A stretch of 49,034 bases of DNA, from the NCBI GenBank assembly GCA_016196035.1, contig JACPYM010000045.1, positions 1 to 49,034 on the forward strand. The letters are read 5' to 3'. This document shows positions 5,511-12,300 of the stretch, piece after piece. Each line of letters begins with the position of its first letter. Positions within the stretch are counted from its first letter, which is position 1. A program made the translations under genes and the position numbers. This DNA is from Acidobacteriota bacterium. GTDB lineage: Bacteria > Acidobacteriota > Blastocatellia > RBC074. Under the pieces are notes generated by a model. The model saw nothing but the letters and a program-made list of their open reading frames with translations. It had not been told where the DNA came from and searched no databases.

Positions 5511-7360
5511 GCATTGCTCCTTTCAGTGTTGGTTTGGTCATCAAGTTTGACGGCTTTGCCCTTGAGGTAGGTCTTTTGGCGTGTGTTGAATTCCGCGTTG
5601 AACCAGTTTTCAGCCAGCGCGGTGGCGCGCAAAGTTCGCGCCGTTTTCCCACGGTCGCCGACGATTTCCCAAAATGATTGGCGCACGGCCTTGCTCACTG
5701 CTTCAGCCCAACTCACACGCTTGGGCCGCCACTTGCTGGCTTTGACGGGCGTTGGCGCCTCGTCTTGCAGTAGCGTAGCGGTCAGGAGTTGTTGAAGCGG
5801 TGCGCCGCTTGGCGCGGATGCTAAGGCTTGCAGCAAACGCCGGAATTCATTTTCGAGGCGCGGCCAGTAATGCAGTTCTGCGCCGCTGGCTTGCACCTTT
5901 GCGTCAATCGGATGCGGCTTCTTGGGCGCGGCTTTGTAGCCGTTTTTCTTCTCGTATTCGATTTGTTTTTTCTTTACCTCGGCGCGCTCCTCTTTCTTCA
6001 ACAGTGGTTGAAAGTATTTCGGGTTAGCGCGGTCGTTGGCGGGTATCAGGGTGAGCGCCAGAAAACGTCGCACGGCGGCGGCGAGCAGCTTGGCCGAATC
6101 CTCCGAAAAGACCAGCGCACGATCCAGTTCCAGACAAAGCTCTTCCTCGTTCAGATAGCGCAGCGGTAGCGGTAGTCTCTCGTGTCGCCATAAATGCAGC
6201 TTTGCCTGATCGGCACAAATGCCGAAGAAATCAATCGGAAACATTTTGGCGTCTTCGATAGCACCTTCTGCTTCCAGGTTATTCAGCCAGTCAAACATCA
6301 ACGGTTTGCTTTGTTTGTCCTTGATGTTGTGGAAGAGCGTAAACGAATCACGCCAAAGCGCGCGATTGAGTGAAAAGCTCAACGGGGAGTACCCTTTCTT
6401 GGCGTTCGCAGAGCGTGCGGCGACAAAAGCACTCATCGTTTCCTTCTCAACCAGTTCATAGGTTTTGGGAAACTGATAGCCGACCATAATCACCGCTTTT
6501 CTGATTACGGTGTCTCCTTGCAGATCGCGTTCTGGGACAAGTTTGATCCGGCGGCTTTGCCAGGTTAGTAGATCAAGATAGCCGACAGGTTCCCGCACGG
6601 CTGATGCGAGGGCGTCTTCTCTTTCCCAGGCAGGCAGGTCGTTGCCGCCTTGCCGATAAGCAGTGAAGAACGGTTGATCGCGCCAGCACAAATTGAGCAT
6701 CAGGGTCTCAAACAAGTTCCGGCCTTTAACAATTCCCGTGGCGGCCAACAGCAACGGGGCTGGGCCTGCCATTTCCTTGTCTATCTCTGCCGTTTTGGTG
6801 CCGCCCGTATCAAAAGCCTGGAGCGCAAGCAACCAGCGCGCAGCCTGCGCTTCAGTCAAAGTTGATGGTTGGGAAGCGGCAACGTGTTCGAATAGCAAAG
6901 CACTGCCTGGGTCCTGAAGAACCAGTTTCCCCCAAAAGTCCTGGTCGAGATTTTCCCGGACGGCAATCGTGTTGCTGCTTTGATAGAACGGGTAGTCCGG
7001 GCCAAACAGGTCAAACCGCTTTGCAATCTCGACCGGCTCTTTGCGATTCAGATAAGCACGGATGCTTTCTTGAAACAGGCCTTCGTCATTCCGGTATCGC
7101 AGCCAGTCTCTCTGGTACGAAAGCGGGCCGAGGCTGCGATGCACGATTGCAAGTAAGAGGCGATAAAGGGCAATTGTGACAGGCGGCGAGTCGCCAATAA
7201 TTTCCCGAATCTGGCTGGCCTGCGCAAACAATTTGGCAAGGCCGAAAAACTTCAGCCTTGCGCCGTGACCTTGCGCCATGCGGCAGGGAATCCAGTTCTG
7301 GCGCGAGTCGTCTTCGCCGTTGATCAAGTTGAAACTGAACTTAACCTTACTTTCACTCAT
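5507..7360 (-). CDS. cas8e: Cascade large subunit Cas8e (Cse1/CasA)
   Basis: A 617-residue protein (E. coli Cse1 is about 502). The N-terminal part with NWIPC, FDLFGPDYPFYQ and the later GRNLFETLMLNLCWRDQPFFTA and WEREDA are typical of Cse1. This subunit recognises the PAM and recruits Cas3. A Lys-rich segment with EYEKKNGYKAAPKKP near residues 460-475 probably accounts for part of the extra length. The start overlaps the cas3 stop codon by 4 bp. Confidence 0.95.
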   Translation of the reverse strand: MSESKVKFSFNLINGEDDSRQNWIPCRMAQGHGARLKFFGLAKLFAQASQIREIIGDSPPVTIALYRLLLAIVHRSLGPLSYQRDWLRYRNDEGLFQESIRAYLNRKEPVEIAKRFDLFGPDYPFYQSSNTIAVRENLDQDFWGKLVLQDPGSALLFEHVAASQPSTLTEAQAARWLLALQAFDTGGTKTAEIDKEMAGPAPLLLAATGIVKGRNLFETLMLNLCWRDQPFFTAYRQGGNDLPAWEREDALASAVREPVGYLDLLTWQSRRIKLVPERDLQGDTVIRKAVIMVGYQFPKTYELVEKETMSAFVAARSANAKKGYSPLSFSLNRALWRDSFTLFHNIKDKQSKPLMFDWLNNLEAEGAIEDAKMFPIDFFGICADQAKLHLWRHERLPLPLRYLNEEELCLELDRALVFSEDSAKLLAAAVRRFLALTLIPANDRANPKYFQPLLKKEERAEVKKKQIEYEKKNGYKAAPKKPHPIDAKVQASGAELHYWPRLENEFRRLLQALASAPSGAPLQQLLTATLLQDEAPTPVKASKWRPKRVSWAEAVSKAVRQSFWEIVGDRGKTARTLRATALAENWFNAEFNTRQKTYLKGKAVKLDDQTNTERSNA

Positions 7361-10293
7361 TGCTTGCCTCCTCGTTTCTCAATCAATATGCCGAGCCGTT
7401 TATCCAGCTTGAGCACGTAGTCAAGACCTTCAATTTCCCGACCCAGAACAATCTTGCGGTAATGGCGCAACAGCGGTGATTTTTTCCACCCAGACGGAAG
7501 CGGCAAAGCTCGTAGTTGTTGTACCAAGCCTTTGCGAGAGATTGTGACCGAGCGGTGCAAAAGCTTTTCCGTTTCATCAGGATCAGGGATCGCTTTTTCA
7601 TCGAAGGAGTCGCCTTCGTTAAAACAGATGACGCCAATGGAATCACCGAGTCTGGTCAGCGCACGGTGTGTGGCGTGAATGTTTTCGAGGTCTTCTTCCA
7701 GGTCTCTACTGAAGAACTCGCCCAGGTGCTCAGTATTTTGCGGCTCGCGCAATAGTTTTTCTTCGGCAAAGCTCTCATGCTCCTTTTGGAGGTTGTCGTG
7801 CTTTTCCTTGAGTGTTCGCCAGAAACTGCACTGTTGCGGCGTAAAATGCGCAGGGCAATCTGCCGAACTGCCAGCGTCATCTTTGGGGTAGGTAGCGTCA
7901 ATCAGCGGCTCGATTTCATCGGGGATTTTGACAAGGCGTTGACTGGTGGCAAGTTGCCATTGCTGGTCATTAAGCGCCAGCCACGAGCGCAACAGAATCC
8001 AGCCAGGTTGATAAACTGCTTCCGTCCCGCTGTCGAAATGTATTTCGTTTTCACCGATTTCCGGCTGGCAAAGCCACAGCGTCGGTTGCTCGATTTCATA
8101 ACGCGGATTGCCATCGTGCCGCCAGATTCTGCCTGACCTTTGCAGCCACAAGTCGGTCGGCGCGAAGTCACTAACCATCAGGTCGAAATCCAGATCAAGA
8201 CTTTGTTCGATAACCTGCGTAGCAACCAGAACAAATCTTCCTTTCGGACGTTCGGCTTCGCGTTCATCGCCATCGCCAAAAACCACCTTCTTTTTAGCTT
8301 TGCCGAAACGCCAGAGTGCCAGTTTTTCTTGCCGCTCACGGTCTTCAAACAGAAATCGCGCATGAAACAAGTCAAGCTCCGTTTCAGGATCGAAGAACGC
8401 GCTCAAAGCCCGATGCATTTGTTGTGCCCGCCCTACTGTGTTGCAGATGACTGCCGCGCATCCTCCATTCTCCAACTTGTCCCGCAACTTCCTGCCCAAA
8501 TTGCCAATCAGACTGCAACTGTCGGCTTGTTCCTCAAGTCTGCCGTCAACCCACTCAATCATAAGGTTGCGTTTCTTTTCCTCTTTTTGTAACAGCGTCT
8601 TAGCTTGAGGTTTGTCGCCAGTTGTCCACGTAAGGCGAGGGTAATCACTCTCAGGAAGCTCGTCATTACGTTCGCGCTCGCCAGAGAGCCCGCGCGCGTA
8701 TGCGTTGATCAACGCCCGGCGTTTGTCTGACGGCAAAGTGGCGGAAAGCAAAATCACAGGCGATTTGAGCGCGCCAAGCCATTCCAGCAACCTCTCAATC
8801 AGTTTGGTCATGTACGTGTCGTAAGCGTGAACTTCGTCAATGATGATCGTCTTGTGAGCAAGGCCAAATAACCGCACAAAAGCATGCGATGTCCGCAAAG
8901 CAGCCATTAAGGTTTGATCCACCGTACCGATCCCAAATGGAGGCAGTAGGCCTTTCTTACGATAAGTGAACCAATCAGCCGCCACCAGATTGCCTGGGCA
9001 TTGGCTGCGCCCCTCCACGCCATCACAACTTATGTCGTGAATCTCTGTCGCTCTGGCCTTGTTGTTGCGGATATCCTTGAAATCGGAAACAAGTGAGGCA
9101 TGTCCGTGTAACAGATAGACCGGCACATCAATACCTGGAAATCGGGTTGTAAGATATTCGCAGACACGTCCGAACATCTGATTGCTGGTCGCCATTGTTG
9201 GCAGCGCGAAATAGATGCCACGTTGTCCAAGCTCGACGTTCCAGCGGTCAGCAAGTGCGATTGCCGCTTCCGTTTTGCCTGCGCCCATTTGTTCCTCAAC
9301 GATGACAAGACCAGGAGTTTTCAAGGTTTTGGCTAACTCTAGGATCGCTTGCTGAGCAGGCAATGGTTCGCCGTACTGCTCTAGCGTCGGGAAAAGCTCA
9401 AAAAAGTCTTTTGCTTCTCGTTGTTCCGGCCAGCCGAGCCACCCCAGTTCGCGCAATGCTTTGCGTGCTTTCTTTTTGGCATGTCTCAGATAGTTCGCGG
9501 CATTGAACCGTGAGAGGTCGGCAGTAACAGCATTCTTCACCTTCAAGTGAAAATAGCTTGTGTTTGAGCCGATCCAATCAGCCACTGAAACCAGGCCGGC
9601 AATCAGCATAACTGTAGCGTTATCAAACTTCTGTGAAGGAAGTGATTTCAGACAATCCAGATTGAAATCAAGCAACTCCGCCAGATACCTTGCCAAATCG
9701 TGACGGGCCTTTTGCCAGTCTGAATTGCCAACGTAGATGCCATTCTTTTTCAGACTTTTCCGCAGCTTATTCAGGTCTTCATTGGAAGCAAAGATGCCGT
9801 GATGACCTCCGATAAGTTCTCCAATTTGATTGGCTAAGGTTTTGTCTGCCTGAAATTCGCAGAGCAAAGATGGCAAGGTCACGGCGGTAACATAGCCATG
9901 CGGCGCTTGATTCGCTTGTGGAGGTTGCTCTCCCTGATATTGGAATGGCGGCGCGATGAATAGTTTGAGCAAGCGTCGGGTCTCCTTGTTGTCTCCACGC
10001 CACGCAAATGGTGGCGAAGCTTTGCCGAGATCGTGTAAGCCTGCGATCCAAGCGACATGTTTCCCGGCGAGTGCGATTCCCATGTCATCAATTGGCAACC
10101 CCAATGCTTTTGTAACTCGCTTTTTTGCGGCGTGGGAAAGAACTTCATCCCACATCCGTAGGGTCACAACTGCCACGTCAATCAAATGGCAGAGCAACGG
10201 ATGATAAGCGAGCGGAAATCTAGCTTTATCTTTGCCTTTGGGAGTCTTGGCCCAGAAACGGATGAGCGTTTCAAGCGGAATCTCAGTTGTCAC
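7357..10293 (-). CDS. cas3: CRISPR helicase-nuclease Cas3 (HD + DExD/H)
   Basis: A 978-residue protein with the full type I arrangement. The HD nuclease domain comes first (H36, then H87-D88 in GLHDLGK). The SF2 helicase follows: Walker A MGAGKT at about 336-341, DEVH box at about 486-489, SATLP, and motif VI region QRSGRIWRH. It degrades the target strand after Cascade binding. The start codon is GTG at 10293, supported by AGGAGG 5 bp upstream. Only 8 bp separate it from the stop codon of the WYL regulator, so it is probably in the same transcript. No frameshift or lost catalytic residue is seen. Confidence 0.97.
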   Translation of the reverse strand: MTTEIPLETLIRFWAKTPKGKDKARFPLAYHPLLCHLIDVAVVTLRMWDEVLSHAAKKRVTKALGLPIDDMGIALAGKHVAWIAGLHDLGKASPPFAWRGDNKETRRLLKLFIAPPFQYQGEQPPQANQAPHGYVTAVTLPSLLCEFQADKTLANQIGELIGGHHGIFASNEDLNKLRKSLKKNGIYVGNSDWQKARHDLARYLAELLDFNLDCLKSLPSQKFDNATVMLIAGLVSVADWIGSNTSYFHLKVKNAVTADLSRFNAANYLRHAKKKARKALRELGWLGWPEQREAKDFFELFPTLEQYGEPLPAQQAILELAKTLKTPGLVIVEEQMGAGKTEAAIALADRWNVELGQRGIYFALPTMATSNQMFGRVCEYLTTRFPGIDVPVYLLHGHASLVSDFKDIRNNKARATEIHDISCDGVEGRSQCPGNLVAADWFTYRKKGLLPPFGIGTVDQTLMAALRTSHAFVRLFGLAHKTIIIDEVHAYDTYMTKLIERLLEWLGALKSPVILLSATLPSDKRRALINAYARGLSGERERNDELPESDYPRLTWTTGDKPQAKTLLQKEEKKRNLMIEWVDGRLEEQADSCSLIGNLGRKLRDKLENGGCAAVICNTVGRAQQMHRALSAFFDPETELDLFHARFLFEDRERQEKLALWRFGKAKKKVVFGDGDEREAERPKGRFVLVATQVIEQSLDLDFDLMVSDFAPTDLWLQRSGRIWRHDGNPRYEIEQPTLWLCQPEIGENEIHFDSGTEAVYQPGWILLRSWLALNDQQWQLATSQRLVKIPDEIEPLIDATYPKDDAGSSADCPAHFTPQQCSFWRTLKEKHDNLQKEHESFAEEKLLREPQNTEHLGEFFSRDLEEDLENIHATHRALTRLGDSIGVICFNEGDSFDEKAIPDPDETEKLLHRSVTISRKGLVQQLRALPLPSGWKKSPLLRHYRKIVLGREIEGLDYVLKLDKRLGILIEKRGGKQ

Positions 10294-10301
10294 TTTTCCT
10301 C

Positions 10302-11324
10302 CTATTGGTCTGGTTGTGAGTTGTTGTAGATCGTCTGCATTGCAGTAACCTCTTCCCGAATCGCCTGTCGCAATTCTTCCGGCTGCACCACCTCAACATG
10401 CGCCCCATACTGCATCACGAACCGCTTCACGCCATCCAGCGCCGTCACCTGCATCGTCAGCTTCAAGCGGCCATCCAGCAATTCTTCGCGTTCTTCGGTC
10501 GGGTGGAACTTGCCGCGTTCGCGTATCCAGCGGGCTTGGTATTCGTCAAAGATGAGTTCGACGGTGAGGGGCTGGCTGCCGCGAATCATGCCGAAGCCGG
10601 AGTTGAGGTAGCTTTCCAACGCGAACCCGGCGGGCCAGTCGAAGTCTTCTTCCAAGACGGTCAATTCGCGAATGCGTCCGGCGTGAAAGTCGAGCACTTT
10701 ACCGCGCAGGTGATCCCAGCCGATCAGATACCAGTCGCCCAGGTGATTGCGCAGGTGCAACGGGTCTACGCGGCGGCGGGTCAGAGCGCCGCGCGAGGCG
10801 GTGAAGTAGGCCATCTCGAGACGGCGGCGTTCGCGGCAGGCGCGGCCCAGGCGGGCGAAGGTGTCGGGGTTGAGTTCGCTGGTGGCGGCGGCTTCAAACG
10901 AATGCGCTTCGGCCAGCGCGGCCAAATCAATTGAGACAGTTTCGGTCAGGGCGCTGATGACTTTGGCGAAGGCTTGCTCGACCTGCTGGGCGATGGCGGT
11001 GCCGCGATATTGGCGCGAGAGTTTTTCGGCCAGCAGGATGGCGATCAAATCGCCTTCCATCAATTCGACGGCGGGCAGCGCGTAGGCGGGTTCGGTGTAA
11101 ATCCAGCCACGCAGTTCGTGCGAATAACCGAGCGGCAGCTTCAACCGGTCGCGCATGAAATCGAGCGTGCGCTGGGCAGTCTTGGTGGTGATTTCAAAAT
11201 GAGCGGCGATGGTGGTGGCATTCGGATGACGGCCCGCGCGGATTTGGTGGTCAATCCAGAACGCGCGTTCCAGGTGGCGCAGATGCTCGCGCTGAGGCGA
11301 AGTCGTTTTTGATGGCGTTTTCAT
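10302..11324 (-). CDS. WYL-domain transcriptional regulator of the cas operon
   Basis: A 340-residue protein. Residues about 14-62 form a winged helix-turn-helix of DeoR/HTH_11 type (IAAHFEITTKTAQRTLDFM). A WYL ligand-binding domain follows, with the signature DWYLIGWD at 197-204 and RVDPLHL before it, and then a C-terminal WCX-like region to the end. WYL proteins are known regulators near phage-defence and CRISPR genes. It lies directly upstream of cas3 on the same strand with an 8-bp gap, so it is probably the first full gene of the cas transcript and may regulate it. No Shine-Dalgarno is visible before its ATG. Instead the ATG overlaps the stop codon of the short HTH frame upstream, which suggests translational coupling. 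Confidence 0.93.
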   Translation of the reverse strand: MKTPSKTTSPQREHLRHLERAFWIDHQIRAGRHPNATTIAAHFEITTKTAQRTLDFMRDRLKLPLGYSHELRGWIYTEPAYALPAVELMEGDLIAILLAEKLSRQYRGTAIAQQVEQAFAKVISALTETVSIDLAALAEAHSFEAAATSELNPDTFARLGRACRERRRLEMAYFTASRGALTRRRVDPLHLRNHLGDWYLIGWDHLRGKVLDFHAGRIRELTVLEEDFDWPAGFALESYLNSGFGMIRGSQPLTVELIFDEYQARWIRERGKFHPTEEREELLDGRLKLTMQVTALDGVKRFVMQYGAHVEVVQPEELRQAIREEVTAMQTIYNNSQPDQ

Positions 11325-11623
11325 AACTGATGATTTAGCAGAGCGGGTTGGACATTTAACGACCTAGGCCAATGAAATTTGCGGGCGTGCGCGCAGAGAC
11401 AGACTTGCGGCACGTTTCTGCGCCAGCAATGGAGCGGGGTTATGGGCGTATTCACCAATTCGCGCAGTTTGTGTTGGACGGTGCGCGGCGTGCGTTCGCT
11501 GACGCGGGCGAGGTCGTCTTTGATTGAATAGCGCCCGCGTTGAATTTCCGCTGTCAGCTTTTGCAGGCGGAAATAAGCTTGCAGGCGCAAACGTGGCGTT
11601 GGGTGTTTCGTCTTGCTGGTCAT
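11321..11623 (-). CDS. Short HTH-only reading frame, possibly a truncated WYL-type regulator
   Basis: About 100 codons from an ATG at 11623; the frame stays open up to 11779. Residues about 32-57 (YSIKDDLARVSERTPRTVQHKLRELVN) read as a helix-turn-helix like that at the N-terminus of WYL regulators. After residue 59 the sequence (Cys/Arg-rich, HCWRRN) resembles nothing, and no WYL domain follows. I therefore think it is either a remnant of a duplicated regulator or a leader peptide. Its TGA overlaps the ATG of the intact regulator by 4 bp, so translation here could deliver ribosomes to that gene. No good ribosome binding site is seen before 11623. Confidence 0.4.
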   Translation of the reverse strand: MTSKTKHPTPRLRLQAYFRLQKLTAEIQRGRYSIKDDLARVSERTPRTVQHKLRELVNTPITPLHCWRRNVPQVCLCAHARKFHWPRSLNVQPALLNHQL

Positions 11624-11650
11624 AACGGGATGCAGTGTATGCAGGCCAAA

Positions 11651-11667
11651 GAGACAACGTATGTCTC
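11651..11667. promoter_or_regulatory. Operator-like palindrome 2 of cas operon
   Basis: GAGACAACGTATGTCTC has 6-bp arms GAGACA/TGTCTC around ACGTA. It lies in the presumed 5' leader between the promoter and the short HTH frame. On the minus strand it shares the 8-mer GTTGTCTC with the palindrome at 11768-11778. A regulator-binding role is inference. Confidence 0.35.
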
Positions 11668-11767
11668 GGCAAAAAAAACGTTGCAATGACCGGTGGCTAA
11701 TCGAGCGTGCGGGTTGTTGTGTCTTTGGGGCTGGCCTCCCGCTGGCCGGGATCGAGTGCTGATTGAA

Positions 11768-11778
11768 TGTCTGAGACA
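11768..11778. promoter_or_regulatory. Operator-like palindrome 1 of cas operon
   Basis: TGTCTGAGACA has perfect 5-bp arms around one base and sits 28 bp downstream of the -10 element of the predicted cas promoter. A repressor bound here could block early transcription. The short arms mean chance is possible. Confidence 0.4.
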
Positions 11779-11805
11779 ACCGGGTACCGCTGGGTTGCGG
11801 AGTGG

Positions 11806-11833
11806 ATTATAGGCGGCGTGCGGAAATTGTCGA
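11806..11833 (-). promoter_or_regulatory. Predicted sigma-70 promoter of the WYL-cas operon
   Basis: On the minus strand, TCGACA (11828-11833; 5/6 match to TTGACA) is followed by a 16-bp spacer and a perfect TATAAT (11806-11811). Transcription would start near 11799 and run into the HTH frame, the WYL regulator and all the cas genes. No comparable promoter was seen between the WYL gene and cas3. Confidence 0.6.
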
Positions 11834-11869: not shown

Positions 11870-12300
11870 ACGGCCGCAGCAAATGCGGCAAGCCCCTCAA
11901 GTTGACGCGGCCAGTAACCCGCCCGTCTGTTTTTGCGGCGTGGCAGAAATAACCCTGGGTACGCACCGCTTCCAACGTGCTCTCGGCTGGCAACCTAGAT
12001 CGGTTTTCATTTGCGTGTACGGTAGGCGCGCCGCGCCGGGACGGTACCGCGCGCGTCAGCAAGCGGCGCTTCGGCGGTGCGTCAGTCCGCCGTGCTTGAC
12101 GCACCGCTTGCTGACGCGCGCGGTACTGTCCCGCTGCGCGGCTTTTTGCCATACACCGAAGTGAAAACCGATCTAGTGCTTCCCAAGCTGACTCTTGCCA
12201 AGAGCACGCTGGAAGCGGTGCGTATCCAGAGCACGCAAAACTTTGACGGGCACCAGACCGGAGGCTTTGACTTGACGGGCTGTGGCGGCATCGTTGACGA
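11870..12300. repeat. Large imperfect palindromic element (diverged inverted copies)
   Basis: This segment folds on itself over about 430 bp. Perfect arm pairs include 11995-12009 with 12162-12176 (15 bp, ctagatcggttttca) and 12044-12066 with 12104-12126 (23 bp). A central hairpin pairs 12074-12084 with 12097-12107. The outer segments 11960-11989 and 12196-12225 also pair with few mismatches, and weaker similarity continues to about 11875 and 12295. Open frames here are mirror images with Arg/Ala-rich translations and are not genes. It separates the cas promoter from the next gene. It could be two inverted copies of a dispersed repeat or a large MITE. Confidence 0.7.

Follow-up and report, generated by a model that had tools for sequence, protein, structure and literature searches.

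The window, the whole 49,034-nucleotide stretch analysed here, carries on its minus strand a WYL regulator gene at the head of a type I-E cas operon, as a sequence-only reading of this DNA had proposed. Above the Pfam cut-off, the encoded protein has a WYL domain (residues 155-223) and a WCX domain (residues 252-329), and the PADLOC model for CRISPR-associated WYL proteins matches it with an E value of 1.6e-37. The order wHTH-WYL-WCX is present, with the N-terminal wHTH recognised from alignment alone, without a Pfam match. The genes cas3, cas8e and cas11 lie 3' of it, placing this WYL-domain protein within the cas locus. Two WYL paralogues are found elsewhere in the genome, both distant (E 6e-20 and weaker). 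A structure prediction of the WYL protein alone reached a pLDDT of 41 and was set aside, and a contig scan elsewhere returned three Nocardioides loci that were distant and uninformative. The PADLOC model PDLC01766, named "Cas3c", aligns to the WYL protein across model positions 38-318 and, because of this match, apparently contains a WYL regulator part. The features of the region are as follows:

7357-10293, minus strand: cas3 of the I-E system (Cas3e match, E 8e-184), starting 8 nt past the WYL stop.
10302-11324, minus strand: WYL-WCX regulator gene of clade A, 340 aa (open reading frame, Pfam, PADLOC and tree; clade A branch support 100/100).
11332-11337, minus strand: predicted -10 element of the WYL gene, TAAATC, with TG-C in front and its sixth place not T, 11 nt past the clade-A operator.
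11349-11365, minus strand: degenerate clade-A operator AGGTCGTTAAATGTCCA, 9/12, 24 nt before the WYL ATG.
11321-11623, minus strand: open frame of 100 aa holding a gene fossil, its TGA overlapping the WYL ATG.
11417-11623, minus strand: the fossil, a clade-B WYL regulator reduced to its first 64-69 codons (wHTH), with its ATG at 11623-11621.
11634-11639, minus strand: -10 element of the fossil's promoter, TACACT, 11 nt past the operator.
11651-11667, minus strand: conserved clade-B-type operator GAGACATACGTTGTCTC, 12/12, 27 nt before the fossil ATG.
11668-11682, minus strand: A/T-rich tract resembling an UP element, abutting the operator upstream as in relatives.
11768-11778, strand not applicable: palindrome TGTCTGAGACA, unconserved and judged to be chance.
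11806-11833, minus strand: consensus-like promoter TCGACA-16-TATAAT, to which relatives give no support.

The sequence-only reading had located the control region farther upstream, at the consensus-like promoter, and had the WYL protein autoregulate the operon through two palindromes. Its description of the letters is largely accurate: the WYL gene does end 8 nt from cas3, TCGACA-16-TATAAT runs on the minus strand from 11833 to 11806, a second palindrome, GAGACA-N5-TGTCTC, occupies 11651-11667, and GTTGTCTC occurs on the minus strand at both palindromes, while the TGTCTGAGACA palindrome lies where it was placed, at 27 rather than 28 nt from the -10 element. However, relatives separate the two palindromes. 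The promoter scores 11/12 and is one of two such matches on both strands of the window; between 10200 and 12500 there is one match of at least 9/12, versus 0.8 +/- 1.0 in shuffled sequence. By symmetry alone neither palindrome stands out, as the window holds 54 perfect 5+1+5 palindromes, TGTCTGAGACA among them, and 18 perfect 6+5+6 palindromes including 11651-11667. Upstream of the WYL start, TGTCTnAGACA occurs in none of the 28 other loci of the class (500 nt each; 355, 284 and 215 nt in L005, L010 and L022), and this absence argues against the distant palindrome and the TATAAT promoter as the control region. The expected conservation among relatives is found for the 11651-11667 type, a candidate site for autoregulation by the WYL protein, and not for 11768-11778.

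Comparison within the class indicates that 11651-11667 is a conserved operator type of WYL genes heading cas operons. The 29 class loci were drawn from 35 places, omitting the frameshift-split genes of G124 and G044 (two places each), a fragment in G038, and G001:C807, and WYL start codons were picked by script. In a scan of the 28 other loci with a motif built solely from the window palindrome's 12 arm letters, sites of at least 9/12 lie no more than 60 nt from the WYL start in 19, and such positions number 22 of 1,708 near starts versus 9 of 38,024 far from them. The DNA upstream of L051, scanned for the first time in the operator test, gave a 12/12 site. The consensus is RRGACA-N5-TGTCYY. 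A TA exactly 11 nt after a site of at least 9/12 is found in 20 of the 29 class loci, the window's gene included, where chance predicts 0.0089 per 61-nt control window, or about 0.3 loci; by clade, this combination occurs in 3 of 9 loci in A (window's gene included), 8 of 10 in B and 9 of 10 in C. The window's clade-A operator shares its placement with AGGACATTACCTGTCAC in L004 (24 nt from the start, no TA at +11) and AGGACATTAGGTGTCCT in L005 (23 nt).

The phasing test used 21 of 27 rows, with L006, L021, L022, L027, L036 and L037 dropped for their distance to the start. TAnnnT stands at offsets 8-13 in 17 of the 21 rows, two of them fossils, compared with a mean of 2.5 and a maximum of 8 in 2,000 shuffles. 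Because T at offset 8 (9 rows) and G at offset 9 (13 rows) precede TAnnnT, the element is read as an extended -10. The ATG usually follows 22-27 nt past the operator, so that these mRNAs would be leaderless or nearly so; for the window, the WYL mRNA from the promoter at 11332-11365 is likewise predicted to be near-leaderless. The A/T content is 0.59 directly upstream of the operators versus 0.47 further out, in a profile excluding L007, L021, L027 and L036.

Outside this set the pattern fades. None of six phylum homologues outside the class (L038-L043) has an 11/12 site, the best being 10/12 in L041, and none reaches 7 of the 8 core positions. Among nine further phylum loci, L089, L095, L096 and L097 carry at least 7/8 core positions, and in none does a TA stand at the 14th nt past TGTC; L096 does have a TA at the 13th nt in one 7/8 site, but at least 121 nt from a start. 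At least 7/8 core positions are present in three of 24 distant class paralogues (L129, L002 and L003), with 8/8 only in L003. This last locus (G000:C29:170248-171117), a distant WYL paralogue in the window's own genome, has CTGACATCATCTGTCAT upstream; a TA stands at nt 13 past its TGTC, which is the spacing of the DriD and PafBC sites discussed below. L097 (G251:C88), a WYL relative from the phylum outside the class, has two CGGACA-N5-TGTCCG sites upstream without a phased -10.

The best-matching operator of the window does not directly precede the WYL gene, since the fossil frame stands between them. The fossil is 52% identical to the clade-B protein L018 over 63 aa (E 2e-14) and 48% identical to L037 (E 7e-10), a second similarity search again assigned it to clade B (E 3e-14), and its identity to the intact WYL protein of the window is 23%. 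Its 64-69 codons contain no stop or frameshift, and of 12 invariant clade-B columns, 2 are changed in it, compared with 0-5 in intact members; a proline invariant in 22 aligned proteins is missing from the frame. Between the end of the fossil and the WYL ATG lie 92-104 nt, and none of 29 WYL proteins matches the DNA behind the fossil at an E value under 0.1. With L037 as query, the genome (96.9% complete) gave four matches, namely, the WYL gene, the fossil and the two distant paralogues, and therefore no separate C-terminal piece of the clade-B gene. By its anatomy and by comparison with intact relatives, 11651-11667 is thus assigned to the promoter of a displaced clade-B regulator, and the intact clade-A gene has its own, weaker putative operator and -10 element. 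The old operator may still serve the present WYL protein, since searches of the genome yielded just two other, distant WYL paralogues. Farther upstream in the window, a long imperfect hairpin at 11955-12229, upstream of the divergent gene, is 71% identical to its own reverse complement over 297 columns.

Among 43 loci, foreign-clade wHTH fossils upstream of WYL genes are found twice, in the window and in L028 of genome G010, and in no other locus; L029 and L030 are frameshift-split WYL genes of their own clade. L028 mirrors the window: here the fossil is some 38 codons of a clade-A wHTH, breaks off inside the HTH and shares 65-69% identity with the window protein; an intact clade-B gene and then cas3 follow it. 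The fossil has the operator CGGACACACCATGTCCA (10/12), and AGGACATTCTTTGTCCT lies before the intact gene. The G010 cas3 is 52% identical to that of the window and is linked to L028 through a 141-bp identical contig overlap. The L028 clade-B gene has a sister in genome G006 that heads a cas6 operon, whereas the G010 copy precedes cas3. Their DNA is 82.7% identical over 998 bp, starting 58-60 nt before the ATG and stopping about 45 nt short of the gene's stop; outside this block, 19 kb of G006 and 11.9 and 7.2 kb of G010 show no match at E 1e-5. Such identity without flanks suggests that the conserved unit is promoter, operator and regulator. A clade-A C-terminus for the L028 gene was considered and dropped, as L019 has the same end and the DNA match runs near the stop.

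The WYL tree resolves three well-supported clades, A (100/100), B (100/99) and C (100/99), over which the types of downstream gene are scattered, with 13 changes versus a mean of 13.9 in shuffles, 67 of 200 of which were as low. The cas3 label, given by similarity to the window's I-E cas3, applies to 11 loci, and the cas6 label applies to 12, 8 of them by Pfam or PADLOC and the others by BLAST grouping; the remainder are Cas3g (2), pAgo (1), HSP70 (1) and unknown (2). In L007 (G021:C2), a prokaryotic Argonaute gene takes the place of the cas operon behind a clade-A WYL relative, and in L010 (G015:C173), an HSP70-like gene lies behind another. A broken clade-A WYL piece with stops is present at L052 5868-6153 (G019:C2), 59-76% identical to the window protein in two short stretches.

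These comparisons suggest that CRISPR operons swap their on/off controls as small regulator cassettes. In the window, anatomy and comparison together show a clade-A cassette downstream of the 5' remnant of a clade-B WYL gene, and the end of the fossil fits a cassette border similar to that in L028. We infer that the cassette moved in, rather than the rest of the operon, because the fossils stand in front.

The reach of the regulator may extend beyond its own operon. In the 9.59-Mb genome, the exact operator pattern occurs twice, in the window and at C42:1809-1825. A reversed control pattern likewise occurs twice, and therefore the weight rests on location and not on number. The C42 site has TAAACG at +11, and a reverse-transcriptase gene starts 46 nt downstream of it. 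In PADLOC, this gene best matches the general reverse-transcriptase model (E 2e-72) and next the Cas1_IIIb model (E 8e-42), which we take to be an RT-Cas1 fusion. Some 3 kb upstream, the same strand carries a gene of the NE0113/Csx1 CARF family, which is CRISPR associated. None of six relatives of the reverse transcriptase has an 11/12 site; the site in L110 scores 10/12 and lacks TA at +11. The reverse-transcriptase gene itself (L102, G000:C42:320-1762) matches reverse-transcriptase models in two parts, with about 135 aa between them. The window's WYL protein is likely the reader of both exact sites, including the fossil's intact operator, since it is the only close family member found in this genome.

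We favour, with confidence only just above even, an exchangeable regulatory cassette that heads several kinds of cas operon and is switched on by DriD-like activation through a ligand-bound WYL homodimer. The cassette would consist of the A/T tract, a 17-bp operator over the -35 position, the extended -10 and a near-leaderless WYL gene. A WYL homodimer would most likely bind the GACA-N5-TGTC sites, and its WYL domain, on taking up a ligand such as single-stranded nucleic acid, would recruit RNA polymerase to the cas promoter, as in DriD. The present regulator probably still reads the intact old operator, and the additional site would place the reverse-transcriptase locus, which we regard as CRISPR linked, under control in trans. 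Activation dependent on single-stranded DNA (ssDNA) is our first choice because the core and spacing of DriD, the sites of PafBC and SiwR, and four of six ssDNA-related residues agree with it. In the accessible part of a preprint, DriD of Caulobacter is a WYL activator triggered by bound ssDNA, its probe core is GACA-GTAAC-TGTC, and in five promoters with a poor -35 and G-14 its sites cover the -35 at a constant distance from the -10 (PMC12340889). DriD thus shares with the window the wHTH-WYL-WCX protein, the core and the place of the site, and differs in activating DNA-damage genes where the window regulator heads a cas operon. Its outer bases are AC/GT versus RR/YY here. When we aligned the three printed DriD promoters, G and A were nt 11 and 14 after the TGTC equivalent, compared with 12 and 15 here in the 19 of 29 loci whose sites score 10/12 or better. 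We take these to be G-14 and A-11. The TGTC element of the class therefore stands at a fixed distance from the extended -10 that is 1 bp longer than in DriD, with a -35 that is poor by eye; the DriD spacing fits at the best-scoring site in two of the three promoters (didA and driD-divergent) and in bapE only at the second-best.

Two mycobacterial WYL activators extend the comparison, again as described in the accessible parts of the sources. The PafBC site, tTGTCRgtg-8-TannnT, puts its TGTC half-site 12 nt before TAnnnT versus 13 here (PMC5656591). PafBC is a heterodimer with one half-site, whereas the site here is symmetric, and without RNA polymerase it does not bind its own promoter DNA (PMC5656591, PMC11804915). 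SiwR recognises a 19-bp imperfect palindrome between -35 and -10, and like the window protein it has a palindromic site near these elements, controlling DinB-like genes (PMC10693628). Four of six ssDNA residues of PafB (R181, R204, Y196 and R214) align with R184, R207, Y199 and R217 of the window protein, and two are replaced (R211 by H214 and R208 by L211). Ligand sensing by the WYL protein, which the sequence-only reading had also raised, is plausible from these conserved residues. Against the activator cassette, clade A combines operator and phased TA in only 3 of its 9 loci, and its operator in the window reaches no more than 9/12.

Repression is a strong rival, close behind activation because CapW, Escherichia fergusonii BrxR and Sll7009 repress and because a site over the -35 can serve both ends. 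Here the cassette and operator would be the same, and the WYL protein would be an autorepressor sitting over the -35 and blocking RNA polymerase until a ligand arising on infection releases it, a reading to which we give a substantial chance, though short of even. The accessible parts of the sources describe CapW and BrxR as adjoining defence operons with a palindrome at their own promoter, CapW and E. fergusonii BrxR as repressors of such operons, and Acinetobacter BrxR as binding a pseudo-palindrome over the -35 with half-sites 5 nt apart (PMC9122588, PMC9122601, PMC9122589). Sll7009, a WYL protein tied to a cas locus (I-D) like that of the window, also represses, and the accessible part of its source describes no operator or cassette exchange (PMC4012209). 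In addition, the operator spans the -35 of an extended -10 promoter with an A/T tract, which might be active unaided. However, the 11-nt spacing is constant across proteins 32-62% identical to that of the window, a constancy that steric blocking does not need, and the core is that of DriD, with spacing within 1 bp of DriD and PafBC. The BrxR half-sites of 10-11 bp and the CapW sites, which overlap the -10, are unlike the window operator (PMC9122588, PMC9122601, PMC9122589); the window type ends 11 nt before the -10.

Two other readings carry less weight. The upstream frame could encode a functional protein consisting of the wHTH only, whose translation is coupled to that of the WYL gene through the TGA-ATG overlap and which shares or competes for the operators. 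The uninterrupted codons, the intact promoter and operator, and a number of changed invariant columns within the range of intact members agree with this, but the lost proline, the DNA past the fossil, which matches no WYL protein of the set, the other fossil of just some 38 codons that cuts the HTH, and the lack of any further case among 43 loci make it improbable. Least probable of all is the scheme with the main promoter at 11806-11833 and the WYL protein bound at 11768-11778 and 11651-11667: its promoter is near consensus and one of its two sites is a real operator type, but the other is missing from all 28 relatives, and in 20 of 29 loci it is the operator that a phased -10 immediately follows.

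That WYL regulators occur beside CRISPR loci is long established. In the titles and abstract openings of the literature matches listed, a set with subscription papers outside it, we found no operator for WYL regulators heading I-E, cas6-headed or Cas3g-headed operons, and no exchange of WYL cassettes. As a tentative proposal, cas operons of different subtypes in this class may share exchangeable activator cassettes switched by ssDNA, with a positive loop, action in trans on several CRISPR loci, and fossils that keep live operators. If this is true, ssDNA that arises in phage replication or through Cas3 itself would close the positive loop, and a single regulator would serve several of a genome's CRISPR loci in trans. 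A common operator with a fixed place in the promoter offers a simple test of the signal and the on/off direction of these regulators, and, to judge by the fossils, exchange of regulators proceeds independently of exchange of effector genes.
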